A DNA stretch of 64,000 nucleotides from Noviherbaspirillum denitrificans (GTDB lineage Bacteria > Pseudomonadota > Gammaproteobacteria > Burkholderiales > Burkholderiaceae_D): the NCBI RefSeq assembly GCF_002211445.1, contig NZ_LSTO01000001.1, positions 563,626 through 627,625 of the forward strand, written 5' to 3'. A program made the translations under genes and the position numbers. The notes under the pieces were generated by a model, which was given only the letters and a program-made list of their open reading frames with translations, had not been told where the DNA came from and did not search any database. Numbering within the stretch: the first letter of the stretch is position 1; every line of letters begins with the position of its first letter. Below, piece after piece: positions 4,301 through 53,901 of this stretch.

Positions 4301-5653
4301 GTGCAGCACGCGATGGAGACTTTACCGACACCGCTGGAGGTGTCGACGATGCGAAAGGTAACGCTTCGTCTCGTTCCCTTTCTGATGCTGTGCTATTTCT
4401 TTGCCCTGCTCGACCGCGTCAATGTCGGGTTCGCATCACTGGAAATGAACAAAGACCTCGGCCTTTCGGCTGCAGTTTTCGGATTGGGCAGCAGCTTGTT
4501 CTTCGTGTCCTACTTCTTCTTCGAAGTACCCAGCAATCTCGCGCTGGAAAAGTTTGGCGCAAGGCGATGGATCGCCCGAATCATGGTTACCTGGGGCATC
4601 GTCTCCGCATGCATGGCACTGGTAGTCGGCCCGTACTCTTTTTACGGCATGCGCTTGATCCTCGGCGCGGCGGAAGCTGGCTTCTTCCCGGGCGTGCTCT
4701 TGTTCCTGACGTACTGGTTTCCCGCCGCTTACCGCGCGCGGATTGTCGCCACATTCATGGTGTCGATCCCGGTGGCCAGTTTCGTCGGCTCGCCGATCTC
4801 CGGCCTCCTGCTCGGACTGGATGGCCTTTGGGGTATGAAGGGCTGGCAGTGGCTATTCATTATTGAGGGCGTGCCGACCGTCCTCCTGGGTACGATGTGC
4901 TTCTTCTTTTTGACGGATCGCCCGGCAAATGCCAAATGGCTGACCGCGGAGGAGCGCGAGTGGATCACGACGCGCTTGCAGCATGACGTGAAAAAGGAGA
5001 AGACGAGCAGCGGTCATCTCTCCATGTGGCAGCTGTTCCGCAACAAGCATTTCCTCATCATGGCCATGGTTTGCGCAGGCGCTTCGGCAACAGGAAGCAG
5101 CCTGTCGATCTGGCAGCCGCAGCTGATCAAGTCGTTTGGCCTGACCAACTTCGAAACAGGATTGATCAACTCGATCCCCTATGGCGTGGCTTCAATCCTG
5201 ATGATCCTGTGGGGCCGCCACTCCGACCGTACCGGTGAGCGTCGCTGGCATACGGCGCTGGCGCTTCTCCTGATCGCATGCGGGCTGGGATCACTGTTTT
5301 TTGCCAAGTCCATGCTGGCTGCCACCATCTTTGCACTAAGCGCGGTGCTTATCGGCGCCTATTCCTTTAAAGGCCCGTTCTGGGCGCTTTCGTCCGGATG
5401 GCTCGCCCCTTCGACGGCGGCAGCCGGCCTGGCCGGTATCAATGCCATCGCCAATCTGGCAGGCGGCGGCGCAATTTCCCTGGTTGGCGTCATCAAGGAA
5501 GCGACCGGAAGTTATGGAATCGCCATGCTGCCGCTGGTCGCCCTGACAACCATCGGCGCCATGTGCGTCCTGTACATCAGCCGGCCGCAGCGCGCCGGCG
5601 CGGCAGTCAGGACGACGGCGGAGACATCGCAAGGAGAGCGATCCGCCGCTTGA
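4301..5653 (+). CDS. MFS transporter, anion:cation symporter (ACS) type
   Basis: This protein has about 450 residues and roughly twelve hydrophobic segments. An N-terminal LDRVNVGFA motif in the first helix region and a DRTGERRWH loop between the halves mark the ACS/phthalate-permease branch of the major facilitator superfamily. These carriers import organic anions such as aromatic or sugar acids with protons. I place the start at GTG 4301 because GGAGAG precedes it by a normal spacing; the frame stays open upstream into the operator boxes. A bidirectional terminator follows. Confidence 0.85.
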   Translation: MQHAMETLPTPLEVSTMRKVTLRLVPFLMLCYFFALLDRVNVGFASLEMNKDLGLSAAVFGLGSSLFFVSYFFFEVPSNLALEKFGARRWIARIMVTWGIVSACMALVVGPYSFYGMRLILGAAEAGFFPGVLLFLTYWFPAAYRARIVATFMVSIPVASFVGSPISGLLLGLDGLWGMKGWQWLFIIEGVPTVLLGTMCFFFLTDRPANAKWLTAEEREWITTRLQHDVKKEKTSSGHLSMWQLFRNKHFLIMAMVCAGASATGSSLSIWQPQLIKSFGLTNFETGLINSIPYGVASILMILWGRHSDRTGERRWHTALALLLIACGLGSLFFAKSMLAATIFALSAVLIGAYSFKGPFWALSSGWLAPSTAAAGLAGINAIANLAGGGAISLVGVIKEATGSYGIAMLPLVALTTIGAMCVLYISRPQRAGAAVRTTAETSQGERSAA

Positions 5654-5702
5654 TCATTTCGACGGCGAGGTTGACTGAACAACGCGAATTGCCGCGATAA
5701 AA

Positions 5703-5737
5703 AAAACCTCCGCCCCTTTGAAGGTGGCGGAGGTTTT
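5703..5737. terminator. Bidirectional terminator between convergent genes
   Basis: AAAACCTCCGCC (5703-5714) and GGCGGAGGTTTT (5726-5737) form a perfect 12-bp stem with A- and T-runs at both ends, so it can work on both strands. It lies between the MFS gene and the oppositely oriented MaoC gene. Confidence 0.9.
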
Positions 5738-5750
5738 CATTTCCTGAAGC

Positions 5751-6206
5751 TTATTCGTAGCGCCGCACAATCGACTCCGCCACGCACACCGGCTTGTCGC
5801 CGCCTTCGCGTTCCATCGTCACCAGCCAGCTGACCTGCACGCCGCCCTCGATGTCTTCCACATCCTTCAGCGTCATGCGCCCGCGCACCTTGCTGCCGAC
5901 CGGCACCGGTGCGGGAAAGCGCACCTTGTTCAGCCCGTAGTTCACGCTCAGCTTTGCTTCCGGCATCGATATGGCACTCTGCACGATCATCGGCAGCAGC
6001 GACAGCGTCAGGAATCCATGCGCGATCGTCGTGCCGTACGGCGACTCCTTCTTGCTGCGCTCGACGTCGAGATGGATCCATTGATGGTCGCCGGTCGCTT
6101 CGGCGAACTGGTTGACCCGTTCCTGGTTGACGGTAAACCAGTCGGTGACCGCGACTTCCTGGCCGACCAGCTCCCTCAGCTCCTGCACTGATGCGATATG
6201 CCGCAT
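5751..6206 (-). CDS. MaoC family (R)-specific enoyl-CoA hydratase
   Basis: This 151-residue hot-dog fold protein has the hydratase-2 motif ATGDHQWIHLD around residues 37-47, where Asp and His activate water on trans-2-enoyl-CoA. AHGFLTLSLLP forms the substrate tunnel. I start it at ATG 6206 (MRHIASVQEL), preceded by AGGAGACAAC; a longer in-frame extension would overlap the upstream gene. It is last in an operon with a second MaoC protein and two acyl-CoA dehydrogenases. Confidence 0.88.
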   Translation of the reverse strand: MRHIASVQELRELVGQEVAVTDWFTVNQERVNQFAEATGDHQWIHLDVERSKKESPYGTTIAHGFLTLSLLPMIVQSAISMPEAKLSVNYGLNKVRFPAPVPVGSKVRGRMTLKDVEDIEGGVQVSWLVTMEREGGDKPVCVAESIVRRYE

Positions 6207-6225
6207 GTTGTCTCCTGTCTGTTTT

Positions 6226-6684
6226 CTAGTTTTGCGGGCGGCGCCCGAACATGCCCATGCCCTTGATGGTCGCCACCACCTCTCCGTGCTGGTTCTTCGC
6301 CTCCCACAGCGTGACGACGACACCCCGGTTCGGCTTGCTTCCGGACGGCCTGACTTCGAGCGCGGTGGTCGTTACGTGCAAGGTATCACCGCCGCGCACG
6401 GGCTTGATCCAGCGGATCTCGTCTACACCCGGCGAACCAAGGCTGGCCGCCTGGTTGAGGAAGCCGTCGACCATCAGCCGCATTATCATCCCGCAGGTAT
6501 GCCACCCGCTGGCGATGATGCCGCCGTACATCGACTTTCCCGCCGCGACCTTGTCGATGTGAAAAGGCTGGGGGTCATACTTCGTTGCGAACTCGATGAT
6601 CTCTTCTTCTGTTACGGTCAGCGTTCCAACCTCGATGGTCTTGCCAGGCTCGAAATCTTCAAAGTACCACTTCACCTGCGACAT
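6226..6684 (-). CDS. MaoC family dehydratase (second, paired)
   Basis: This 152-residue hot-dog protein has YDPQPFHIDKVAA near residues 37-49 and GGIIASGWHTCGMIMRLM, a MaoC variant with the Asp/His dyad embedded in DPQPFHID. It lies 19 bases upstream of the other MaoC gene and downstream of two acyl-CoA dehydrogenases. Such an arrangement often encodes a dehydrogenation plus hydration cycle on an unusual acyl-CoA. The substrate is unknown. Confidence 0.85.
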   Translation of the reverse strand: MSQVKWYFEDFEPGKTIEVGTLTVTEEEIIEFATKYDPQPFHIDKVAAGKSMYGGIIASGWHTCGMIMRLMVDGFLNQAASLGSPGVDEIRWIKPVRGGDTLHVTTTALEVRPSGSKPNRGVVVTLWEAKNQHGEVVATIKGMGMFGRRPQN

Positions 6685-6703
6685 ATATGCCCCCTTTCGG
6701 ACG

Positions 6704-7843
6704 TCAGGCTGCCTTGCGGAAGCCGGGCAGCGAGGCGAACCGGGCCAGGTGGTGGTCAGTATCGCCCAGCGTCAGTTCGATCATGGTCAGGCGCTTGAAA
6801 TGGTGCGCCGCCGGCAGTTCATTGGTCACACCCATGCCGCCGTGCAATTGCACCGCCTGCTGGCCGACGTATTTCAATGCCTGCCCCACGCGCGCCTTGG
6901 CAGCGGACACGTTGCGGCGGCGTTCGTTCGCGTCCGGCGACGAGACCTTGACCGCGGCCAGCGTGGCCATCGAACGCGCCTGTTCCGCCTGCATGAACAT
7001 TTCCGCCATGCGGTGCTGCAGCGCCTGGAACTTCCCGATCGGCACGCCGAACTGCTGGCGGGTCTTCAGGTATTCGAGCGTCGCACCATTGAGCGCATCC
7101 ATGGCGCCGACCGCTTCTGCGCACAGCAGTGCGCAGCCGTAATCGGCAGCGGCATCGAGGATCTCCCAGCCCGCTCCTGCCTTGCCCAGCAGCGCCGATG
7201 CAGGAACCCGCACATTAGCGAACGTGATGTCAGCAGCATGCTGGCAATCGATCGTGCGATAGTCCTTGCGGGTCACGCCGGCAGCATCGCCGTCAACGAG
7301 GAACAGGGACACGCCTTCGGTATCGCGCTGGCCCCCGGAAGTGCGCGCGGACACGATGATCTTGTCCGCTTGCGCGCCGTGGATCACGACGGTCTTGGTG
7401 CCATTGAGGACGTAACCGTCGCTGTCTGCCTTCGCCGTCGCGGCGATGTCGAACAGTTCGTGGCGCGACTGTTTTTCACCGAGTGCGGCCGCCAGCTTCA
7501 GCCCGCCGCCTGCAACCTGCTCCAGCAGCTCGTCATGCCCGCCCGCCAGCTTCAGGAATTGCACGCCGAGCACGGTGGCGAAGTACGGCTCGATGACGAT
7601 GCCGCGTCCCAGTTCCTGCATCACGACCATCATGTCGACGGCGGAGCCGTTGAAGCCTCCCTGCTCTTCAGGAACCGGCAATGCGGTCATGCCCAGCTCG
7701 GCCAACGTGGCCCAAGCTTCGTCGGAGACGCCTTTTTCAGAATGCACGATCTTATTGCGATGCTCGAAGGTGTAATCCTTGTCGATGAAGCGGCGCAGCG
7801 CATCGCGGAATTGTTGCTGCTCGGGGGTGTAGTTGAAGTCCAT
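6704..7843 (-). CDS. Acyl-CoA dehydrogenase, subunit-like (379 aa)
   Basis: This flavoprotein of the acyl-CoA dehydrogenase family has an N-terminal helical domain (MDFNYTPEQQQFRDALRRFI), a middle beta domain, and a C-terminal domain with LHGGMGVTNELPAAHHFKRL. The canonical C-terminal nucleotide-binding stretch of the GTxEIQ type is absent and the sequence is divergent in the middle domain. It is immediately downstream (13 bases) of a second, more canonical dehydrogenase. The pair resembles the heteromeric FadE28/FadE29-type alpha2beta2 dehydrogenases; this relationship is inferred from layout only. Confidence 0.87.
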   Translation of the reverse strand: MDFNYTPEQQQFRDALRRFIDKDYTFEHRNKIVHSEKGVSDEAWATLAELGMTALPVPEEQGGFNGSAVDMMVVMQELGRGIVIEPYFATVLGVQFLKLAGGHDELLEQVAGGGLKLAAALGEKQSRHELFDIAATAKADSDGYVLNGTKTVVIHGAQADKIIVSARTSGGQRDTEGVSLFLVDGDAAGVTRKDYRTIDCQHAADITFANVRVPASALLGKAGAGWEILDAAADYGCALLCAEAVGAMDALNGATLEYLKTRQQFGVPIGKFQALQHRMAEMFMQAEQARSMATLAAVKVSSPDANERRRNVSAAKARVGQALKYVGQQAVQLHGGMGVTNELPAAHHFKRLTMIELTLGDTDHHLARFASLPGFRKAA

Positions 7844-7856
7844 TATTGTCTCCGCC

Positions 7857-9053
7857 TCACAGTCCCAGGATCATCTGGGAGATGATGTTTTTCTGAATTT
7901 CGTTGGAACCGCCGTAGATCGATGTCTTGCGGAAGTTGAAGTAGTACGGCGCCAGCGGTGCGGCATCGTCGTCCTGCGTGACGCTGTGCTCGTGCTCGCC
8001 TTCCAGGTAGGCCGGATCGAAAGGCATTGCATACGGGCCCGCGGCTTCGACCATCAGTTCGGTCAGCGCCTGCTGCACTTCCGTGCCCTTCACCTTCAGC
8101 ATCGACGCTTCCGGTCCCGGGCCGCGCTTGGCGCTTTCCTGTGACAGCACGCGCAGTACGGTCATTTCGAGTGCCATGATCTCGATTTCCAGGCTGGCGA
8201 CCTTGGCCGCGTAGACCGGATCTTCCAGCAGCGGCCTGCCCCCCTTCATCTGCTTGCCGGCGAGACGCTTCAGGAACACCAGCTCGCGCTTGGCGCGGCC
8301 GACAGCGGCAATGTTGGTGCGCTCGTGGCCGAGCAGGTATTTCGCGTAGGTCCAGCCCTTGTTTTCCTCGCCGATCAGGTTCTGCACCGGCACCTTCACG
8401 TTGTCGAAGAAGACTTCGTTCACCTCATGCTCTTCATCGAGCATGATGATCGGACGCACCGTAATGCCCGGCGTATGCATGTCGATCAGGAGGAAGGAAA
8501 TGCCTTCCTGCTTGCGCGCATTCGGATCGGTGCGCACGAGGCAGAAGATCATGTCGGCATGCTGCGCCAGCGTGGTCCAGGTTTTCTGGCCGTTGACGAT
8601 GTAATAGTCACCGTCGCGCTCGGCGCGGGTCTTCAGCGATGCGAGGTCGGAGCCGGATCCCGGTTCGGAGTAGCCCTGGCACCACCAGTCGTCGCAGTTG
8701 AGGATGCGCGGGAGGTAATGGCGCTTCTGCGCTTCGTTGCCGAAGGCCATGATGACCGGGGCAACCATGTTCACGCCGAACGGCAGGATCGCCGGCGTAC
8801 CGGCGTGCGCGCATTCTTCTTCCCAGATGTGGCGCTGCACCGGCGTCCACCCCGTGCCGCCGTATTCGACCGGCCATCCTGTGCCGACCCATCCCTGCTT
8901 GGCGACGATCTTGTGCCAGCGGACGAAGTCTTCCTTCGACAGGCGCTTGTGGTTGAGTACCTTTTGCTGCAGATCTTTGGGGAGGTTCGCTTCGAGGAAG
9001 GCGCGAACCGTGTCGCGGAAGGCCAAATCTTCCGCCGTGTAGTTCAAATCCAT
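7857..9053 (-). CDS. Acyl-CoA dehydrogenase (398 aa), first gene of the operon
   Basis: A full-length acyl-CoA dehydrogenase with WCQGYSEPGSGSDLASLKT (FAD/substrate loop), TWTTLAQHADM, and the C-terminal IYGGSNEIQKNIISQMILGL. At the place where medium-chain enzymes carry their catalytic Glu in YEGTSxIQ this protein has Gly (YGGSNEIQ), as in several side-chain-degrading dehydrogenases. It leads an operon with a second dehydrogenase and two MaoC hydratases. A motif at 9082-9094 lies about 30 bases upstream of the start. Confidence 0.9.
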   Translation of the reverse strand: MDLNYTAEDLAFRDTVRAFLEANLPKDLQQKVLNHKRLSKEDFVRWHKIVAKQGWVGTGWPVEYGGTGWTPVQRHIWEEECAHAGTPAILPFGVNMVAPVIMAFGNEAQKRHYLPRILNCDDWWCQGYSEPGSGSDLASLKTRAERDGDYYIVNGQKTWTTLAQHADMIFCLVRTDPNARKQEGISFLLIDMHTPGITVRPIIMLDEEHEVNEVFFDNVKVPVQNLIGEENKGWTYAKYLLGHERTNIAAVGRAKRELVFLKRLAGKQMKGGRPLLEDPVYAAKVASLEIEIMALEMTVLRVLSQESAKRGPGPEASMLKVKGTEVQQALTELMVEAAGPYAMPFDPAYLEGEHEHSVTQDDDAAPLAPYYFNFRKTSIYGGSNEIQKNIISQMILGL

Positions 9054-9081
9054 GCTGTCTCCTAGTTGTCCCGGCTTAATA

Positions 9082-9094
9082 GCACGACCGTTCG
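9082..9094. promoter_or_regulatory. Candidate operator GCACGACCGTTCG
   Basis: Twelve of 13 bases match the motif at 744-756. It lies just upstream of the acyl-CoA dehydrogenase operon and may be a common regulator site linking the two acyl-CoA gene groups. Confidence 0.35.
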
Positions 9095-9189
9095 AAAACG
9101 ATTATACAGCGGATTTTTCCGATATGTGTCGAATTAAAAATAGCGGAAAATCAAGCGTGGACAACTTGTCAACGCGGAGTGGCGAGAAC

Positions 9190-9609
9190 CTACTGGAGAG
9201 GCTGCTTCAGGGCGTCGGAAATGGGAAGCGGAAGAACGTCGATGCCTTCCTCGGAAAGCGCAGCAAATTCCTGAGCCGACGCGACACCGCGAATGGCGCG
9301 GTCCGGTGCTTCGTTGTAATGAATGCGGCGGGCTTCTTCCGCAAAGCGCTCGCCGACGTCTTCAGTGTTGGCAACGATCTTGCGAACCATTTGCAGGAAT
9401 TGCTTCTGCACCTGCTCCACCTCGGACTTGGCCGCCTGCATACCTGACAGGCTCAGGTGCGGTGCCGACGGCAGCTTCTTTATGGCATGGCTTTCACACA
9501 CGGGGCATCCGATCTGGTGTGCTTCATTCTGGGACTTGAAATCTTCTTCCGAAGAAAACCAGCCTTCGAAGCGGTGATCGTGCTCGCAGATGAGGTTATA
9601 GACTTTCAT
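9190..9609 (-). CDS. DUF1178 family protein
   Basis: This 139-residue protein is of the widespread DUF1178 family. Its N-terminus MKVYNLICEHDHRFEGWFSS with Cys8, followed by CPVC near residues 35-38, looks like a small zinc-ribbon. A coiled, charged middle and the LPLPISDALKQ tail are typical of the family. Function is unknown. It stands alone between the acyl-CoA module and a small hypothetical gene. Confidence 0.85.
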   Translation of the reverse strand: MKVYNLICEHDHRFEGWFSSEEDFKSQNEAHQIGCPVCESHAIKKLPSAPHLSLSGMQAAKSEVEQVQKQFLQMVRKIVANTEDVGERFAEEARRIHYNEAPDRAIRGVASAQEFAALSEEGIDVLPLPISDALKQPLQ

Positions 9610-9726
9610 GCCGTGGTGCGGATGGAGGGGAAGCGCGTGTTACATGGCAAACCATGCTTGCATTCTACTTCCTTCCTGCTCTATCCGCTCGGCACAACTC
9701 CATGACGCGCCGCGGCAAGGGAGGGA

Positions 9727-10011
9727 TTATTGCTTGAATTCGAATTGCTGCTGGCCGTGGTCCAGCAGGCCTGGAAGGCGCTGCGCCAACAGCACGGCCT
9801 TGGCACGCCGGCGTGCGGAATGCGCCTCCAGCACTCCAGTGAGGCGCCGGACGTTTTCCTTTATTTCAACAACCTGCTCCGCCTTGGCAAGCCGCACGAG
9901 ATTGCGCAGGTTTTCACGAAAAAGGTGTCGTTGCCGCGCAGGCGCATCTAGGCCAAGCGTGGCTGCGATCAGGTTGTCGATGACATCGTCGGTATCAAGC
10001 TTTCTTTTCAT
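9727..10011 (-). CDS. Small hypothetical protein
   Basis: This 94-residue protein is rich in Leu, Arg and Ala (MKRKLDTDDVIDNLIAATLG...), predicted mostly helical, with no recognisable domain. The start is plausible and the sequence is not opposite another supported gene, so I keep it as a hypothetical gene. Codon use resembles its neighbours. Confidence 0.5.
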   Translation of the reverse strand: MKRKLDTDDVIDNLIAATLGLDAPARQRHLFRENLRNLVRLAKAEQVVEIKENVRRLTGVLEAHSARRRAKAVLLAQRLPGLLDHGQQQFEFKQ

Positions 10012-17734: not shown

Positions 17735-17750
17735 TGGTGCCCGAGACCGG
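17735..17750. repeat. attL core (displaced tRNA-Leu 3' end)
   Basis: TGGTGCCCGAGACCGG is identical to the end of tRNA-Leu at 53886-53901. Flanking bases differ on both sides. It marks the left prophage junction, where the original tRNA tail was displaced. Confidence 0.8.
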
Positions 17751-17900: not shown

Positions 17901-18623
17901 CTAAGGCGCGCTCTTCAATGGAGGCGGGGCAGAAATCGCTCCAGCCGCTTTTACACCCGCCTTTGCTTGAGCTGCTGCAATTACTTTTTGCATGTGTTGT
18001 TCACGCTCGTAGCGATGGACATACCACTCCTCCAAAAGGACCTCGATCAGGCCGATCAGCAATTCGGCTTCATCCGGGTCGACATCTACAACAATGTTGA
18101 TGTCCTTTTCCATATGCGCGCCGATATTCCCAATCTTTCTCACTGCATCGATTGCATCCCATGTAACGGAATCAATTTTTCCCGATAGTGCATCAATTTC
18201 GTCAACTAGGCGGGCCTTCTTGATATTCCAAAAATCACGGATGATGCCTTGCAGGCAACGCCGGGATAACGTAGCGGACGCTTTAGGACTAAGCGATGCA
18301 ATCTTGCACGCTTCTTCATAGTCTTGACGAATTGCCTCCGGAATATAAGCGGGGAAAGATTTCGCTTTTGAGTCCGGCTTCAGACTCCATGTGAGCAACG
18401 GGGAGCCGACGACTGATCTGTTGGGGGCGTACTTTATTCGGTATAGCGCAGCTTCAATTGTATATTCCTTGCAATCTCCATTCGGGCAGACAATTACGCT
18501 CGTATGAATGCCCAGATCCCCTTCTTTGTTGTCGCAATTAAAATAATGAATGTTGCCACTGCGATTGGCGTCGATAATCGTTGCGTTTTGTTTGCAATAA
18601 GGACACGTCCACACATTTGCCAT
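17901..18623 (-). CDS. DUF4145 protein, prophage left-end cargo
   Basis: This 240-residue protein begins with a zinc-ribbon-like segment (CPYC near residues 8-11, later FNCDN and VCPNGDC), followed by a helical DUF4145 domain (RRCLQGIIRDFW...IGNIGAHMEKD). DUF4145 domains occur alone or attached to restriction-type proteins, and no molecular function is established here. It lies between attL and the lysis genes, the classic place for lysogenic-conversion genes. Codon use looks less GC-rich than neighbouring host genes. A defence or superinfection-exclusion role is only a guess. Confidence 0.8.
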   Translation of the reverse strand: MANVWTCPYCKQNATIIDANRSGNIHYFNCDNKEGDLGIHTSVIVCPNGDCKEYTIEAALYRIKYAPNRSVVGSPLLTWSLKPDSKAKSFPAYIPEAIRQDYEEACKIASLSPKASATLSRRCLQGIIRDFWNIKKARLVDEIDALSGKIDSVTWDAIDAVRKIGNIGAHMEKDINIVVDVDPDEAELLIGLIEVLLEEWYVHRYEREQHMQKVIAAAQAKAGVKAAGAISAPPPLKSAP

Positions 18624-46758: not shown

Positions 46759-47087
46759 AACGCAAAGACCGTCAAACGCTTGCCCTGCTCCACTTAAAAG
46801 ATCACGGCCGCACAACCGGCAAATCCCTTTCCGAGTCCATCGGCGTGACCACAAAGAATATCGCTACGGTCATGAAGCCCCTCATTGCCGCACAGGCTGT
46901 AATCAAGGGACGTGACAAGGCAACGCAGTCCTCCACCTACACCATCACGAAAACGGGCCTCGCCGCACTTGTTCGCAAAGATCCTCCGGTCGAGGCCCCT
47001 CGCTATAACCCGTCGGATCCGTTCGGTTTGCTCGCAAAGCTGCGTGCTGCACAGACCTCCATCCCCACTGTCGCATCCCATCGTTGA
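46755..47087 (+). CDS. Winged-helix-like DNA-binding protein
   Basis: This 110-residue protein has a helix-turn-helix/winged-helix pattern (RQTLALLHLKDHGRTTGKSLSESIGVTTKNIATVMKPLI). ATG 46755 follows AGGAGG by 7 bases and overlaps the upstream stop. It may regulate the early operon or replication. Confidence 0.65.
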   Translation: MKRKDRQTLALLHLKDHGRTTGKSLSESIGVTTKNIATVMKPLIAAQAVIKGRDKATQSSTYTITKTGLAALVRKDPPVEAPRYNPSDPFGLLAKLRAAQTSIPTVASHR

Positions 47088-47097
47088 AGGAAAAGCC

Positions 47098-48966
47098 ATG
47101 ACCGCAACCCAAACCAATTTTGCAGAGCCCCACTTCGGCACTATCCCCCTTGCGTGCGTGATTCCCTCCAAGACCAACCCGCGCAAACACTTCGACGAGT
47201 CCGCACTGCATGAGCTCGCCGAGAGCATCCGGCAGGTTGGCGTCGCACAGCCGATCCTTGTCCGTCCGCTGCCGACCACCGAGAGCATGATCGACTGCGT
47301 CGAGATCGTCGCCGGCGAGCGCCGTTACCGCGCCTCCAAACTGGCAGGCCTGCAGTCCATCCCTGCGATCGTGCGCGAACTCACAGACGTCCAGGTGCTG
47401 GAGATCCAGGTCATCGAGAACCTGCAACGCCAGGACGTGCATCCGATCGAGGAGGCGGAGGGATACGACCAGCTCATGCGCCAACACGACTACACCGCAG
47501 AACAGCTGGCCGACAAGGTCGGCAAGAGCAAGGCCTACATCTATGGCCGCTTGAAGCTGTGCTCTCTCGCATCCGAAGCACGCGAGGCCTTCTTCGCCGG
47601 CAAGATCAACGCCTCGATTGCAGAGCGAATCGCCAGGATGCCGGTCCTCGCCCTGCAGGCAAAGGCAACGCAGGAGATCGTCCACAACTACGGACAACCC
47701 GAGCCGATGTCATTCCGCCGCGCCGTCGAGCACCTCCAGGCGCGCTACATGCTCGATCTCGCTCACGCAAAGTTTGCGATCAAGGACGCCAAGCTCGTAT
47801 CAGCTACTGGATCCTGCCTCTCCTGCCCAAAACGGACCGGTAATCAGCCGGAGATCTATCACGACGTCGATGCAGACGTCTGCACTGATCCGGATTGTTT
47901 CGAATCAAAGGTTAACGCACACAACGAGCGCAAAGCCGCAGCCGCGCAAAAGTCAGGTCTGCCGATTTACGCAGACGGCATGGAGGCCTATACCAAGCTC
48001 CGGGAAAACAACCAGGTGTCCGCATATGACGGCCTCTACAAGATGGACCGGTTGGCCAAGTCCTCGATGTCCAACACGCCCATTGAGGACGTCATCCCCG
48101 CCGACCAACTGCCGAAGCCTGTCGCGTATGTCAAAGGCAATGACGGCGAAATTGATGCGGTGTATGAAAAGTCCGCTATCCAGTTCGCCTTGGAGAAGGC
48201 GGGCCTCTGCCTCACCCTGGAGAAGCACAATGCGCTCTTGCAGGAAAAGATGAGCGGCAACGCACGCGATCCGAAAGTCTCGGAGAAGGAAAAGCAGGCC
48301 GAGGCTGAGCGTCGCGAGCGCACGAAAAAGGCCGAGCTGGAGACAACAATCCGGAAAGCGGTATATGCAGAGGTCCGCAGCAAGATCCTCCAGGGAGACG
48401 GGCACTTAACCGCCCTACGTCATATCGCAAAGCGTCTTTGCGACGAATGGTCTTTCCCACACGTCATTGCGAGCGACTACAAGTTCAACGTCCTCAACTT
48501 CAATGAAGCTGCGAAGTTCATCGATTCCGCCAGTCTCGAAGAAGTTGTCGCCTTTATCCTCGGAATGACGATTGGCGAGTGCGTCCAGGTTGACGCCTTC
48601 GACATGGACGACGACGAGCACCTTGAGAATCCTTGGTATCTCGGCCTCCTCGATGTTGCAAAGGCCTGCGACATCGAGCACGACAAAATCCGATCGGAAC
48701 ATACCCCGAAACCTGCAGAGCAGCAGGATCTGCCAGTCGCAGCTGAAACGCCGAAGAAGAAGGGGCAGCAAAAGACTGCAGAAACGGCCGCAGAGGCACC
48801 GAAAATGGCCGAGACGACCAAGGATGCCACCGACACGAAAAAAGCGGCTCCAGCGAAGCCTACGCCAGCCAAAAAGGCCGCGGCAACAAACGCAAAGACC
48901 GACGAGGTCCCCGCTACCGCATGGCCGTTCCCCACCGCCGCGGAAATGGCCGCAAAGGGCAAGTGA
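47098..48966 (+). CDS. ParB-family protein with cysteine-rich and Lys/Ala tail
   Basis: This 622-residue protein starts MTATQTNFAEPHFG (ATG 47098). ParB N-terminal signatures include NPRKHFDESALHELAESIRQ and VAGERRYRASKLAGLQ, then an HTH YTAEQLADKVGKSKAYIYGRLK. Near residues 240-265 a cysteine cluster (CLSCPKR, DVCTDPDC) may bind metal. The last part is Lys/Ala/Pro-rich. It could be a CTP-dependent DNA clamp acting on the repeated palindromes. No ParA gene is seen. Confidence 0.82.
   Translation: MTATQTNFAEPHFGTIPLACVIPSKTNPRKHFDESALHELAESIRQVGVAQPILVRPLPTTESMIDCVEIVAGERRYRASKLAGLQSIPAIVRELTDVQVLEIQVIENLQRQDVHPIEEAEGYDQLMRQHDYTAEQLADKVGKSKAYIYGRLKLCSLASEAREAFFAGKINASIAERIARMPVLALQAKATQEIVHNYGQPEPMSFRRAVEHLQARYMLDLAHAKFAIKDAKLVSATGSCLSCPKRTGNQPEIYHDVDADVCTDPDCFESKVNAHNERKAAAAQKSGLPIYADGMEAYTKLRENNQVSAYDGLYKMDRLAKSSMSNTPIEDVIPADQLPKPVAYVKGNDGEIDAVYEKSAIQFALEKAGLCLTLEKHNALLQEKMSGNARDPKVSEKEKQAEAERRERTKKAELETTIRKAVYAEVRSKILQGDGHLTALRHIAKRLCDEWSFPHVIASDYKFNVLNFNEAAKFIDSASLEEVVAFILGMTIGECVQVDAFDMDDDEHLENPWYLGLLDVAKACDIEHDKIRSEHTPKPAEQQDLPVAAETPKKKGQQKTAETAAEAPKMAETTKDATDTKKAAPAKPTPAKKAAATNAKTDEVPATAWPFPTAAEMAAKGK
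47871..47884. repeat. 14-bp core palindrome TGCAGACGTCTGCA, copy 3
   Basis: The core is exact; with flanks it is one base different from GTGCAGACGTCTGCAC. It lies inside the ParB-like gene where the coding frame reads ADVCT. Confidence 0.75.
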
Positions 48967-49148: not shown

Positions 49149-49420
49149 GCGAAACCGAACTCCTCACCAAGCTGGCCGACCTCCTCGGCAAGCAACTCCG
49201 TCCGGCGCTCCCGGTTGACATTGACCTTTGGGACGTCTCGACGATCGCCCAATTCTTGAAGCGCAGCGACTCCGCCGTCCGCGAGCGGATCTGCCCGCTC
49301 CCCGACTTCCCGAAGGCGATCCGCCTCCCGTCGCAAGGCGGCCGCGGTCATCCGCTCTGGAAGGCAAAAGAGGTGATCGAGTGGGCGGAGAAATATCGCG
49401 AAATTAGGACGAGAAATTAA
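49145..49420 (+). CDS. AlpA-like/excisionase-type regulator
   Basis: A 91-residue protein with a MerR/AlpA-like HTH (VSTIAQFLKRSDSAVRERI) and the beta pattern PDFPKAIRLPSQGGRGHPLWKAKEVIEW. Such proteins act as excisionase or prophage activator. The integrase lies on the other side of the cargo cassette. Confidence 0.7.
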   Translation: MSETELLTKLADLLGKQLRPALPVDIDLWDVSTIAQFLKRSDSAVRERICPLPDFPKAIRLPSQGGRGHPLWKAKEVIEWAEKYREIRTRN

Positions 49421-49435
49421 TCGCCAATGACCAAT

Positions 49436-50269
49436 CTAATTTACCGGTATTTCTAGAGTAGTGATGAGCAGCTCATCCTCTTTTTTCGGTGCTTTAGTAC
49501 TGTATTGGAATGCCTTATGTACATGGTTGTGATCGGCATACAAACCCTTAATCACGTCATGACTGTCATAGCTCAATATCCAATTGAACTTGGCACTTTT
49601 AAGAGAAGAGGATAGCGCCACATGGTCCTTCAGCTTGTAGTGATGACGATAAAGCTTACGTCCCTGAATAAAATAGGGTGGATCCACATAGAAAAGGCTA
49701 GTAGTTCTTCGCTTGTATTCCGTAATTACGTCGAGCGCATCTCCATACCGGACTTCCACTCGGTCTGCGAGATCACTGAGTCTTTTAATCTTATCGATCA
49801 AATCTTCTTTATTGAAGCGACAATCAATGCTATAGGCAGACGACTGCTTTTGCCCGCCGATCGGCCCCGAATGCAAGACTCCTGAGAAGTTTGTTCGATT
49901 AAAGAATAAGGCCGCAAACGCCAGCTGAACTTCATCTTCTTCTGATGGCTCTTCGCACTTCAGCAAAGGTTGAAGTTCATGCCACGTTTTGAGTGAAACG
50001 GTCACATTCTTGATTTTTTTTATGAGCTTATCTGGATGCTCAAATGCAACCTTCCAGAAAGAGTACATGAGGGGATCGCGCTCCGAAATTACTGCTTCCG
50101 AGCAAACTTTTTCTGACAGGAGCGCTAACGTTACAGCTGCGCTTCCGGCATAGGGTTCCACGAGCTTCTTCCCCTCGAGCCCGTTATAAATGATCAGGTC
50201 CTTAATTACCTTTGTAAACGACGATTTACTTCCGGGGTAGCGGAAGGGAGTTTTGACAATCTCGGTCAT
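49436..50269 (-). CDS. D12-class DNA adenine methylase
   Basis: This 277-residue protein has the SAM-binding FRYPGSK near residues 8-14, LVEPYAGSAAVTLALL, and the catalytic DPPY near residue 195 (FYVDPPYFIQ). It is a Dam-type N6-adenine methyltransferase; the recognition sequence is unknown. It overlaps the upstream gene by ATGA and is the third gene of the cassette. A host-restriction-avoidance or defence role is possible. Confidence 0.92.
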   Translation of the reverse strand: MTEIVKTPFRYPGSKSSFTKVIKDLIIYNGLEGKKLVEPYAGSAAVTLALLSEKVCSEAVISERDPLMYSFWKVAFEHPDKLIKKIKNVTVSLKTWHELQPLLKCEEPSEEDEVQLAFAALFFNRTNFSGVLHSGPIGGQKQSSAYSIDCRFNKEDLIDKIKRLSDLADRVEVRYGDALDVITEYKRRTTSLFYVDPPYFIQGRKLYRHHYKLKDHVALSSSLKSAKFNWILSYDSHDVIKGLYADHNHVHKAFQYSTKAPKKEDELLITTLEIPVN

Positions 50270-51279
50270 GCCGTGGCAGCCTGCTTCAGCTCTGTGATTC
50301 GTTCAGTAACCCAAGCGGCTATCTCAGGAAAATCAGTGGTACGTTCAACTGTAAGTCTTTGATCTGCCGTTAGTCCCAGCCCCCTGTAGGCAAGTACTGG
50401 GATCATATATCGATAGTAGATCGCGCCATACCTCTTCGTTAGCACATGCAACTGTTGCTTGAGTGTCGCTCCACCGGTGAGTGGGATACAGAATGGGATG
50501 AAGAGTGCGGCCGTCGGCTCGGAAGCTGGTATTTCTGAAAACCAGTTCTCGTGAAATGGACGGAAATATTCGAGTACGCTCTTACTTGGCCAGTTGCCAC
50601 CGGAAGCCGCTTGCCCAAGCATATAAAAGGTGCCTGCTGCATTATCGTTTCGAGGCTTCCATGCGATGACGTCAATACCTTCATCTTTGGGATTTGTTGA
50701 TACCCCTGGCAGAGGAGCTTCCCGTACAGTGCCCTCCCCAAACAGTGCATAAGTTGAACGCAGTTTGTCCAGGTAGGGAGATCCATCTGGACGAGGAAAT
50801 CCGAATGCTATAGCACAGCCTTCAAGTGCTCCGGCTGCTGCCCAAGTAGCGCACGCCTGAAACAAGTCTCGAATCCTGTTATTTAACTCAAAATCAAAGC
50901 GATCAAGCTCGAAAATCTCGGAACTCTTTACGCTCGACAGGAAGAGGCAGAAAAGATAAAGCATCGCCCCGTCGGATATATCGTTTTTCAGGAGTAGCTC
51001 TTCCTCAGTGTCGTTAAACTGGAAGGGATAATGATCACCCAAGCATTCCATTCGCTTTTGGAATTCTGCAAGTATCTCTTCCAAAAACTGCTCATCCGGA
51101 GCGCCGTCTTCTAACGCGCGCCCTTCTGGATCTGAGCTTTCGGAGTTTCGCCTACGGTCCCATGCTCTTTGCAAACTCCGGAGCTGACCAACCGAGTACT
51201 CAGAACATAAGACATGAAATTCAAACCAATCTGCGATTACGTGAGGATCGCGATCCAACGGAATTTGGGCTAACGGCAT
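50266..51279 (-). CDS. Putative PD-(D/E)xK nuclease (cassette middle gene)
   Basis: This 337-residue protein has no family match known to me. Around residues 199-225 it has DEGIDVIAW...LGQAASGGNWPSK, like restriction-endonuclease cores with Asp, Gln and Lys. The rest is helical. Between a ParB-N-domain gene and a methylase, a restriction role is plausible but not shown. Active-site assignment needs structure modelling. Confidence 0.55.
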   Translation of the reverse strand: MPLAQIPLDRDPHVIADWFEFHVLCSEYSVGQLRSLQRAWDRRRNSESSDPEGRALEDGAPDEQFLEEILAEFQKRMECLGDHYPFQFNDTEEELLLKNDISDGAMLYLFCLFLSSVKSSEIFELDRFDFELNNRIRDLFQACATWAAAGALEGCAIAFGFPRPDGSPYLDKLRSTYALFGEGTVREAPLPGVSTNPKDEGIDVIAWKPRNDNAAGTFYMLGQAASGGNWPSKSVLEYFRPFHENWFSEIPASEPTAALFIPFCIPLTGGATLKQQLHVLTKRYGAIYYRYMIPVLAYRGLGLTADQRLTVERTTDFPEIAAWVTERITELKQAATA

Positions 51280-51290
51280 TTGCGGTTACT

Positions 51291-52469
51291 TTACTTCTTT
51301 TGGAGTGGCTTTTTTGTGCCTGGAGCACCCTTGCTTTTCGGCGTCGCCGGAGGATTTACTTCTGCACTTTTCTTCTTCATTACGGTAAGGAGAATATCAG
51401 CCTGCTGCGAGATCTCACGCGCTATCGCGAGGAGGTTCGGTTCACCATTGTATTTTGGTAGCGCATCTATAACAGAACTGAGCCGCACATGGGCTTGCGC
51501 CAACACTTCGCTAAACACGTCGTAAGGCGAGCGCACCTCGTTATAAGCGACACTAAGCTTCTCCCCGGTGCGAATTCTCTCGAGAGCAACTGGGTGGGCA
51601 ATTACCTCACCCACATGCTTCAAGTCAGGGTTTTGAGACTTAACTAATGGTTGAGCGTCATCTCGTTTGTCGCCGTAAAGATAAAGTAAAACCTCTTTTA
51701 GCTTGCCCTCATTTGCTCTTGGAACTGGCGAAGTTACAGGCTCCTTGCTCCACCCTTTGTCAAGTCCGAGGAAGTCCTGATATTCCGTCCGTCCAAGCGC
51801 GGTATACAAATGCGAAAACGCGAATTTTCCTTTGTTATACCGGTTCTTAATGTCAAAAAGTTTACGTCCCTCTGCTTGCTCCAGTACGAAGATGCTAGAG
51901 ATGTACGCGCGAATAGTATCGTTATCATCACCAAGCTGCCGCGCGATTTGATCGATAGTGAGTCCATTCTCGCGCTCGCGCTTATACCAATCTGACACGA
52001 AGCGTGCCTTGGCATAAGCATCCCATCGACTAGGGCCGTTAATATGCTTAAAGCCAATGAATGCCTGTGCGTCGCTCTCTTTGTCGACACGCCAGACTGT
52101 GACTTTTTCAACGGACCTGCGAACATCCGCGCGTATCCTTGGAAGGGAAATTCTGCATTTCGCCGCCAGGTCCGGATCTTTTATTAGCTTTATCGATGCA
52201 AGCCGGCGATTGCCCTCTAGGACTCTATACGGCCCCCCATTGGGTCCCATTACAATTAGAGGCTCAAAGTCTAAGTAAGTATTGGTGCAAATCGACGTAA
52301 TGACTTCGTCGAGAGGTGAGATCTCGTTCAACGCCGAGATAATGTCCTCATCGTTCGAAGTGCTGTAGTCGTTTCCATTCAGTAGACGAGGATTTTGGCG
52401 GTCAAACTCGAGAAGGTCCGTTGGACAGCCACGAGTTGGCGCTCCTGATATCGGCGAAAAGGCGGGCAT
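51291..52469 (-). CDS. ParB N-terminal domain protein (cassette first gene)
   Basis: This 392-residue protein has the ParB-N/sulfiredoxin-fold segment VLEGNRRLASIKLIKDP (in place of GERR), then IGFKHINGPSRWDAYAKARFVSDWY, typical of defence-island ParB-like proteins, and a Lys/Pro/Ala tail. It precedes the nuclease-like gene by 11 bases. A candidate promoter has a -10 TACAAT on the minus strand at 52510-52505. Confidence 0.75.
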   Translation of the reverse strand: MPAFSPISGAPTRGCPTDLLEFDRQNPRLLNGNDYSTSNDEDIISALNEISPLDEVITSICTNTYLDFEPLIVMGPNGGPYRVLEGNRRLASIKLIKDPDLAAKCRISLPRIRADVRRSVEKVTVWRVDKESDAQAFIGFKHINGPSRWDAYAKARFVSDWYKRERENGLTIDQIARQLGDDNDTIRAYISSIFVLEQAEGRKLFDIKNRYNKGKFAFSHLYTALGRTEYQDFLGLDKGWSKEPVTSPVPRANEGKLKEVLLYLYGDKRDDAQPLVKSQNPDLKHVGEVIAHPVALERIRTGEKLSVAYNEVRSPYDVFSEVLAQAHVRLSSVIDALPKYNGEPNLLAIAREISQQADILLTVMKKKSAEVNPPATPKSKGAPGTKKPLQKK

Positions 52470-52679
52470 AATTTCCCAATATTATCTTGTTTTTGCAGGC
52501 GGCTATTGTACCGGTAGGCCACAAAACCTTAAAGTACACTGTTACACAACTTCGGATACGATTGTCCTTCAGCAAAGTAAATGGGTCGGGAAGCTGACTT
52601 TTCGTAAGGATTAGGTTGTGCAGACGTCTGCACTTCTTCCGGGTAGCACTTGCGAATTTCCGCATACGCCATTCAGTTG
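52470..52679. promoter_or_regulatory. Cassette promoter region with palindrome
   Basis: This 210-base gap between the integrase stop and the ParB-N-domain start is AT-rich and holds copy 4 of the palindrome (52618-52633). No gene is supported. Confidence 0.5.
52618..52633. repeat. 16-bp palindrome GTGCAGACGTCTGCAC, copy 4
   Basis: Exact match, positioned upstream of the cassette's first gene and 47 bases from the integrase stop. Confidence 0.8.
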
Positions 52680-53732
52680 CTAGTCAAGGCGACTGGCAAT
52701 TTCAGCGGCCGTCGCGTTGTAGTAGATCTGCAGCATCCTCAAGTCCCTATGCCCCACCATTCGGGCCAATTCCAGAACGTTCAATTTCTTCGCCAGGCGC
52801 GTGATCGCCTCATGTCGCGAGTCATGGAAAGTCAGGTCCGTGATCCCGCATCGATCCTTGGCCTTGCGGAATAACGCATCGAGGGACTTCGAAGTGATCC
52901 CGAAAACGGTCCCACCCTCCTCCGGCTTCGGCAAATAGGACAGCAGCTCGACGGCACGCTTGGAGAGCGGCACATCCCGCTTTGTCCCGTTCTTCGTCTG
53001 CGGCAAGTGCGCAACCTGCCCCTGGACGTGCTCCGGCACCAATGCGCAGATCTCGCCGGCACGCATTGCAGTCTCGATTGCAAAAAGGAACGCAACAGCG
53101 ACGCGTTGACTCACCGTCATCGCCGGTCCGTCATCGAAGCCGAGCGACAAGCACAGGCGCTCGATCTCGTCCTCCCGGATCCGCCGATCGCGAGGAGGCG
53201 GGTTTTTCGGCCGTCGGACGTCTTTCGTCGGACTTTCGGCAAGCCACTTCCACTCACGCCGCGCCGTGTTGAAAACGTGCGACAGGAGGTTAAATTCACG
53301 GTTGACGGTCGATCCGCTCACGGTCCGGATCGGTGCCGGATCCGCCCTCTCGATCTGCCGCTGCGCGACCTCCATACTCATGCGGGCATCACGCAACATG
53401 CCAAGATGCTCAGACGTCAGATCGGATAGCTTGATGTCGCCGAACTTGACCGGCCGCTCACCGACCTCGATCTCGGCCAGCACGCCCATCCGGAGCGCCT
53501 CGTATCGGTGCCCGCGCTTCGTCCTGGAGACTTCCTTCTCATACCGGTGGAACGCGTCACGGACGGTCTTGCCGGCAATGACCGCGGTTGACTTGTTCTG
53601 CCGGAGCTCCGTCTCACGCTGCGCCGCCCAAGCTTGCGCCTGCGCCTTGGTCTGGAATGTGCCGGAATCGCGCTGCCCTTTGACATACACCTGCACGCGC
53701 CACACGTTGCCGTCTTTTTTGAAGCTCGCCAT
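52680..53732 (-). CDS. Tyrosine-type phage integrase
   Basis: This 350-residue enzyme recombines attP and attB in tRNA-Leu. Catalytic residues are the Arg in AMRAGEIC, HxxR in HDSRHEAITRL, the His in GHRDLRM and Tyr in YYNATAAEI near the C-terminus. It has the N-terminal Arm-binding domain (SGTFQTKAQAQAWAAQRE). The gene is 154 bases from the tRNA end. Confidence 0.95.
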   Translation of the reverse strand: MASFKKDGNVWRVQVYVKGQRDSGTFQTKAQAQAWAAQRETELRQNKSTAVIAGKTVRDAFHRYEKEVSRTKRGHRYEALRMGVLAEIEVGERPVKFGDIKLSDLTSEHLGMLRDARMSMEVAQRQIERADPAPIRTVSGSTVNREFNLLSHVFNTARREWKWLAESPTKDVRRPKNPPPRDRRIREDEIERLCLSLGFDDGPAMTVSQRVAVAFLFAIETAMRAGEICALVPEHVQGQVAHLPQTKNGTKRDVPLSKRAVELLSYLPKPEEGGTVFGITSKSLDALFRKAKDRCGITDLTFHDSRHEAITRLAKKLNVLELARMVGHRDLRMLQIYYNATAAEIASRLD

Positions 53733-53885: not shown

Positions 53886-53901
53886 TGGTGCCCGAGACCG
53901 G
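53886..53901. repeat. attR core (phage-restored tRNA 3' end)
   Basis: TGGTGCCCGAGACCGG, also at 17735-17750. Confidence 0.8.

Follow-up and report, generated by a model that had tools for sequence, protein, structure and literature searches.

PD-Lambda-5 is an experimentally tested defence system, according to the part of Vassallo et al. (2022, PMC9519451) that is drawn on here. A protein with a ParB-fold N-domain and a methylase of the PD-Lambda-5_B family are also present in a cassette of three genes, A, M and B, in a prophage of Noviherbaspirillum denitrificans. This cassette is the subject of the present account, and "the window" is the whole stretch of 64,000 nucleotides that was analysed (assembly GCF_002211445.1, contig NZ_LSTO01000001.1, positions 563,626 to 627,625 of the forward strand). 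In contrast with PD-Lambda-5, the A of the cassette lacks the C-terminal part of PD-Lambda-5_A, and the P2-type relatives of the cassette that were inspected have a C5 methylase instead. Judged by sequence, the cassette is partly related to PD-Lambda-5 and is not filed as a member. Type II restriction-modification systems resemble it in setting a methylase next to a nuclease (here a predicted PD-(D/E)XK nuclease) in tandem or convergent layout; they differ in that the predicted nuclease of the cassette comes with the ParB-fold A in every record inspected, and the class of the methylase varies around the A-M core. MspJI/Mrr-type nucleases cut modified DNA, normally without a cognate methylase, and have a D...QxK core. 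MspJI is the best structural neighbour of the nuclease domain of M, and M's D...Q core resembles theirs, but the window's M has no K two residues after its Q. With the CTP switches ParB, Noc and KorB and with orphan ParB-fold proteins, A shares the fold, the GxxR motif and a helix-turn-helix (HTH) region, whereas its linkage is to a nuclease-like protein and a methylase and not to ParA. A survey of the fold reports that its members differ in the nucleotide that they bind, CTP, ATP or GTP, and that the choice cannot be read from sequence (PMC12704722, in the part consulted). GmrSD-type ParB-fold restriction enzymes bring ParB and an HNH nuclease together in defence (PMC12839542, likewise in part); in the cassette the nuclease-like protein is instead separate, of PD-(D/E)XK type and linked to a methylase. 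In the literature covered, which did not extend to supplements and subscription papers, no description of a set of ParB-fold protein, M and methylase was recognised, although an Escherichia coli version may stand in the hotspot tables of PMC9122126.

Our best reading is that the cassette is a conserved three-gene module of defence type whose function is predicted, a variant lying near PD-Lambda-5 and type II restriction-modification; it is probably a three-component, restriction-modification-like defence module borne by the prophage. The three genes lie on the minus strand in the order A, M, B (sizes from the listing of open reading frames, ORFs). A (51291..52469) encodes an orphan ParB-fold protein of 392 amino acids (aa), with a ParB N-domain, an HTH region and a helical C-terminus assigned from the ORF, profile and model. 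M (50266..51279) encodes a putative nuclease of 337 aa with a winged helix and a PD-(D/E)XK-like domain (ORF, phrog_14650, model and the structural aligner VIA-align), and B (49436..50269) a D12-class adenine-N6 DNA methyltransferase of 277 aa (PF02086 and PD-Lambda-5_B). An 11-base gap separates A from M, while M and B share 4 bases (ATGA); on one side of the cassette is a rightward gene whose end is at 49420, on the other the integrase gene (52680-53732, minus strand). The GC content of A, M and B is 0.50, 0.50 and 0.45, compared with 0.59-0.63 in seven other genes (five of the prophage, uvrC and gcvP), and their GC3 is 0.47-0.51, against 0.72-0.83 in the same seven. An earlier note, made from the sequence alone, had described three AT-rich minus-strand genes with this overlap and gap, placed between a rightward operon and the integrase; its account of coordinates, spacing, composition and position is borne out, and the motifs to which it pointed are present: FRYPGSK and DPPY in B, EGNRR in A and DEGIDVIAW...GQAASGGNW in M.

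That the cassette is more than a chance arrangement is indicated by the recurrence of the A-M-B order in four other contigs (L001-L004, in the numbering of records used here), with identities of 57-60, 50-52 and 49-51%. A adjoins M in all 39 records inspected (the window, L001-L006, L011-L016, L018, L019, L028-L045 and L048-L053), each of which holds M or part of it; 32 of the 38 besides the window were found via M alone and six via A. The co-occurrence in other genomes on which the earlier note had made its proposal depend is found for all three genes, in this order, in four contigs and for A with M in every record inspected. The loci hit by A that lack M (L017, L020 and L021) were left out. 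Also dropped before the counts were records that repeat the cassette of the window (L008-L010, L022 and L027), short versions of L048-L053 (L023-L026, L046 and L047) and L007, a 41-residue local match that is overlapped by a 546-aa opposite-strand ORF and was judged spurious. The family is rare: it was found in 5 of 398 genomes sampled across the phylum and 3 of 369 across the class (the cassette's own genome being counted in both), and in the genus in that genome only, one of 15; a search of 5426 complete E. coli genomes found a relative of M in 84, of which one was examined. A tblastn search of 50,697 phage records with M gave none at 1e-5 and a single weak record up to E 10, and scans of viral contigs with the M proteins of L011, L012, L018 and L015 gave no relatives; the phage relatives were found through A instead (13 records, five of them examined). 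Phage contig L015 has two converging A-M pairs (4974-9813), with no methylase recognised nearby. M is in two pieces in L045 (3998-6139), a relative of phage D14A, where a 281-aa ORF of the opposite strand is inserted into it.

B matches Pfam PF02086 (2e-17) and, over residues 5-274 of its 277, PD-Lambda-5_B (7e-88); it is related by sequence to 7m6b and to M.DpnII (2dpm), and its identification as a D12 methylase stands. A methylase adjoins the A-M pair in 33 of the 38 records that can be assessed (L033 ends inside M), a count that includes many near-identical P2-type phage records, and at 20 of the 24 loci of the reduced set used for the tree. These methylases were recognised by Pfam in the window, L011, L012, L043, L048, L049, L051, L052 and L053, by similarity to B in L001-L004 and by annotation in L013, L014 and L016; in the remaining records, mostly P2-type, they were recognised by sequence motifs alone. 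A D12 methylase lies downstream on the same strand in the window and L001-L004, converges on the pair in L011, L049 and L050, and lies upstream in L052. The P2-type phages, L014, L043, L051 and L053 have a C5 methylase, and L012 and L048 one of N4/N6 class. The tree was built from concatenated A and M (25 A-M pairs from 24 loci, with near-identical P2-type records excluded beforehand); support is good for 13 of its 22 inner branches but not for several of the deep ones, and the branches of L019 and L015b are long. The methylase class changes at least twice on this tree if methylase-less rows are left uncounted, and there are nine changes when orientation and absence count as states. Among PADLOC's methylases, the DruM models of Druantia are the best match of the C5 methylases at L013:7063-8001 and L043:4988-6001.

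M matches phrog_14650 (9.3e-35) and phrog_3984 (1.2e-8), both of unknown function, and has no significant match in Pfam, NCBIfam or PADLOC: its best match in PADLOC 2.0.0 is an unrelated candidate at E 0.004, and four other M proteins gave none at 0.001. An M profile run against sequences of the Protein Data Bank found no relative, with one chance match at E 0.72. The evidence of a nuclease comes from a predicted structure (AlphaFold2 from 17 sequences, pLDDT 73, pTM 0.79). Among the 50 VIA-align rows listed for this model, 31 align to residues ~100-300, and all 31 are nucleases of the restriction-endonuclease fold (Z 5.0-6.7); the other 19 align to residues ~7-99 and are winged-helix proteins (the rows were sorted into these two kinds by title and family knowledge). 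MspJI comes first (Z 6.7, rmsd 4.6, 144 residues aligned, 14% identity), followed by EcoT38I (Z 6.6), Nt.BspD6I (6.3) and the Shedu nuclease (5.9), the remaining neighbours being AgeI, Bse634I, Cfr10I, BsaWI, AspBHI, FokI, Card1, NgoMIV, SgrAI, Can2 and BstEII. M is accordingly predicted, on the model, to consist of a winged helix (residues 8-100, 50980..51258, minus strand) and a PD-(D/E)XK-like nuclease domain (residues 101-303, 50371..50979). The 25 M sequences compared share D17, E20, R76, Y84, P85, D203, Q223 and R290 without exception. Two further positions each differ in a single one of the 25: D199, replaced by E in one sequence, and K233, replaced by H in L052. The resulting core motif, D199-x3-D203 ... 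Q223-x9-K233, is encoded at 50581..50685 on the same strand.

A, in turn, has no significant match in Pfam or NCBIfam, Pfam ParB_N being absent even up to E 1. Its profile nevertheless reaches Spo0J (3.4e-5), its model (pLDDT 80, pTM 0.54) finds KorB in Foldseek (8.1e-6), and VIA-align places it with Noc (Z 9.6, rmsd 4.1, 198 residues aligned) and the DNA-binding domain of KorB (Z 8.4). All 25 of the A sequences compared have NPR, EGNRR, H142 and W149; EGNRR (52203..52217, minus strand) is the ParB fold's phosphate motif, of GxxR type. A ParB-type fold with a ParB N-domain and this motif, which the earlier note had proposed, is thus supported. phrog_3694 covers most of A (1.6e-78), and the PD-Lambda-5_A profile matches its N-terminal part (6e-16). 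In hhalign the PD-Lambda-5_A of V. maritimus is aligned to A with 98.6% probability over 155 columns, covering positions 14-177 of 513. In none of the 24 PD-Lambda-5_A models listed does the best stretch run beyond position 233 of the profile, the longest of these models having 592 positions. The PADLOC candidate PDC-M38 offers a second likeness: its PDC-M38A model (715 positions) matches A at 1.7e-15, and the A of L013 over a longer stretch (residues 41-316, 2e-21), but M has no match to PDC-M38, and a literature search on that name found nothing. That M is the split-off C-terminal part of PD-Lambda-5_A was considered and rejected, since the two show no similarity (probability 0.1%, with only two sequences on that side). 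A three-gene look-alike in Vibrio phage ValB1MD-2 (L017), which lacks M, consists of a methylase and a PD-Lambda-5_A divided between two ORFs.

Both flanks are visible at two P2-type loci, those of phage 12474III (L013) and E. coli AR_0137 (L057), and at each the set has portal gene Q on one side and replication gene A on the other; at Wphi (L016) the one visible flank is that of the replication gene. The interval between Q and the replication gene of P2-type phages is a known defence hotspot (PMC9519451 and PMC9122126, in the parts consulted). A type I restriction operon surrounds the set in L052 (618-12529): a D12 methylase, A and M stand between its hsdM-type and hsdR-type genes, and M is separated from the hsdR-like gene by one that encodes Schlafen/AlbA_2 and Fic-like C-terminal domains. 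On a Neorhizobium plasmid (L019), A-M is preceded by a split C5 methylase, DUF262, Z1 and PD-(D/E)XK-motif genes and followed by an HNH-like gene that falls below its Pfam cut-off.

It is the company that A-M keeps, with several methylase classes and in defence contexts, that makes methylation-linked defence the best reading, and restriction-modification logic explains why a nuclease-like protein should travel with methylases of changing class. The likeness of B and of A's N-domain to the tested PD-Lambda-5 speaks for this reading as well, and so do the nuclease-fold neighbours and the conserved D/Q core of M. B would methylate adenine at its target and so mark the DNA of host and prophage as self. 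A, with its HTH region, would bind nucleotide and DNA and serve as sensor or loader; its ParB fold suggests, at the level of the model, that loading on to DNA may depend on nucleotide. M, as the partner of A, would cut DNA that does not carry the mark, and the outcome would be a lysogen protected against other phages. We infer, then, a complex of A with M, DNA cutting by M, missing methylation as the trigger and protection of the lysogen. The earlier note had proposed a new methylation-guided module of defence or counter-restriction; the first of these has become the best reading, nothing was found that favours the second, and "new" needs qualifying, since the N-domain of A and the whole of B belong to PD-Lambda-5 families. 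A bolder version, which we hold tentatively and think rather unlikely, would make the cassette a new class of restriction: A would be a nucleotide-switched clamp that loads at unmethylated sites, closes and slides, delivering or licensing the separate nuclease M; an exchangeable methylase would block loading, and it would be the clamp, not the nuclease, that reads self and non-self.

Several observations weigh against restriction-modification-like defence. The strongest is that no methylase is adjacent in five of the 38 records (L005, L006, L015, L018 and L019), which is awkward for a strict restriction-modification system; in these the methylase may lie elsewhere (the split C5 methylase of L019 is ~6 kb upstream of A-M), the loci may be inactive, or the trigger may not be simply missing methylation. 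The methylase of L051, moreover, is only a 223-aa part, and in Pseudomonas phage D14A (L014) the set adjoins a tail gene and not the P2 hotspot. For M, Foldseek gave nothing at 1e-3 (best was the nickase Nt.BspD6I, weak at E 0.10), the 31 nuclease rows represent only 15 different enzymes, and every Z of the nuclease domain is below 8 (best 6.7), a range in which, the VIA tool warns, a score can reflect a common arrangement. A PD-(D/E)XK-like fold is nonetheless taken as the likely one because the structural rows are uniform and the residues invariant; structure prediction and fold search lend support, with that reservation about Z, to the nuclease core that the earlier note had suspected. The lysine of M also stands 10 residues past Q, where the usual spacing is 2. 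Two residues past Q, 24 of the 25 sequences, that of the window among them, carry A, G or T, and the conserved W and K come later; in L052, however, which lacks the late lysine, a lysine occupies Q+2, the usual QxK place, and this sequence comparison suggests that the late lysine replaces the usual one and does the same job. As for A, its profile matches the prophage's own canonical ParB with a probability of only 12%.

The A-M pairs without an adjacent methylase are also what speaks for abortive infection, the rival that survives best, though we consider it unlikely. A would sense an event caused by the phage (inhibition of the methylase, an altered nucleotide pool or phage DNA intermediates) and switch on M, which would cut regardless of self, the methylase being a guarded partner or an off-switch. 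The change of methylase class fits the marking of DNA better than the guarding of one enzyme, and M has no similarity to the C-terminal part of PD-Lambda-5, so that the outcome of that system cannot be transferred to this one.

Less probable by some way is a module of counter-restriction or phage biology, in which B would guard the phage's DNA against restriction by the host, with A and M acting as regulators or as helpers of replication or packaging. Phages do carry orphan methylases. Anti-defence or phage-host roles have also been proposed for phage ParB-fold fusions, some of them to methylases (PMC12704722, in the part consulted). The A-M set, however, occurs not only in phages but also on plasmids and bacterial genome contigs, twice among restriction or defence genes, and a role of this kind would not need the conserved nuclease-type residues of M. 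That A is a partition protein and the genes serve plasmid-like maintenance of the prophage is very improbable: the closest solved folds of A are indeed ParB, Noc and KorB, and putative partition systems occupy the same hotspot in about a fourth of P2-like phages (PMC9122126, in part), but the constant partner of A is M, its adjacent genes (the only ones scanned for ParA) are M and the integrase gene with no ParA, and the prophage has an integrase, an att repeat in tRNA-Leu and another protein with canonical ParB_N and HTH_ParB domains.

If the restriction-modification-like reading holds, a restriction nuclease is constantly paired with a protein of ParB fold, in a module that occurs in phages, plasmids and bacterial genomes and lies outside the PADLOC 2.0.0 models. 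With m6A, m5C and N4/N6-class methylases replacing one another beside the same A-M core, one could then ask directly how one restriction core reads different marks, and PD-Lambda-5 would be linked through the cassette to a form that carries the nuclease-like part as a gene of its own.

The prophage itself is ~36 kb long (about 17735-53901), with the cassette at its integrase end; a 16-bp repeat marks its two boundaries, one copy at 17735 and the other, inside tRNA-Leu, at 53886. Its other ParB-type protein (684 aa) is encoded in the rightward operon at 46912-48966 (plus strand). The 210-bp gap upstream of A (52470..52679) is, from its position, the likely promoter region; no minus-strand sigma70-like site was found within it, consensus promoters and terminators around the cassette occur at chance level in a scan of the region, and a repeat search there yielded nothing useful. 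A 37-kb contig of the same genome matches window positions 17751-53901 with zero mismatches and holds an identical second copy of the cassette. This contig (contig 6; L054 and L055) ends exactly at the right att core and is joined, across a run of N, to a further 1.1 kb of different sequence. It could represent the prophage in excised form or as a second copy, or else an artefact of scaffolding. At the opposite end of the prophage, a DUF4145 gene (17901-18623, minus strand) matches the defence model PD-T7-4 (7.8e-12), and the prophage may therefore carry a second defence gene. Among the relatives, A has a 425-aa gene immediately upstream in two related contigs, L004 (3511-4788), which has the methylase, and L005 (3523-4800), which does not; that of L005 has no Pfam match. 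On Rhizobium plasmid L021 (4920-7170), a distant A-like ParB-fold gene adjoins a gene of the DndB family.

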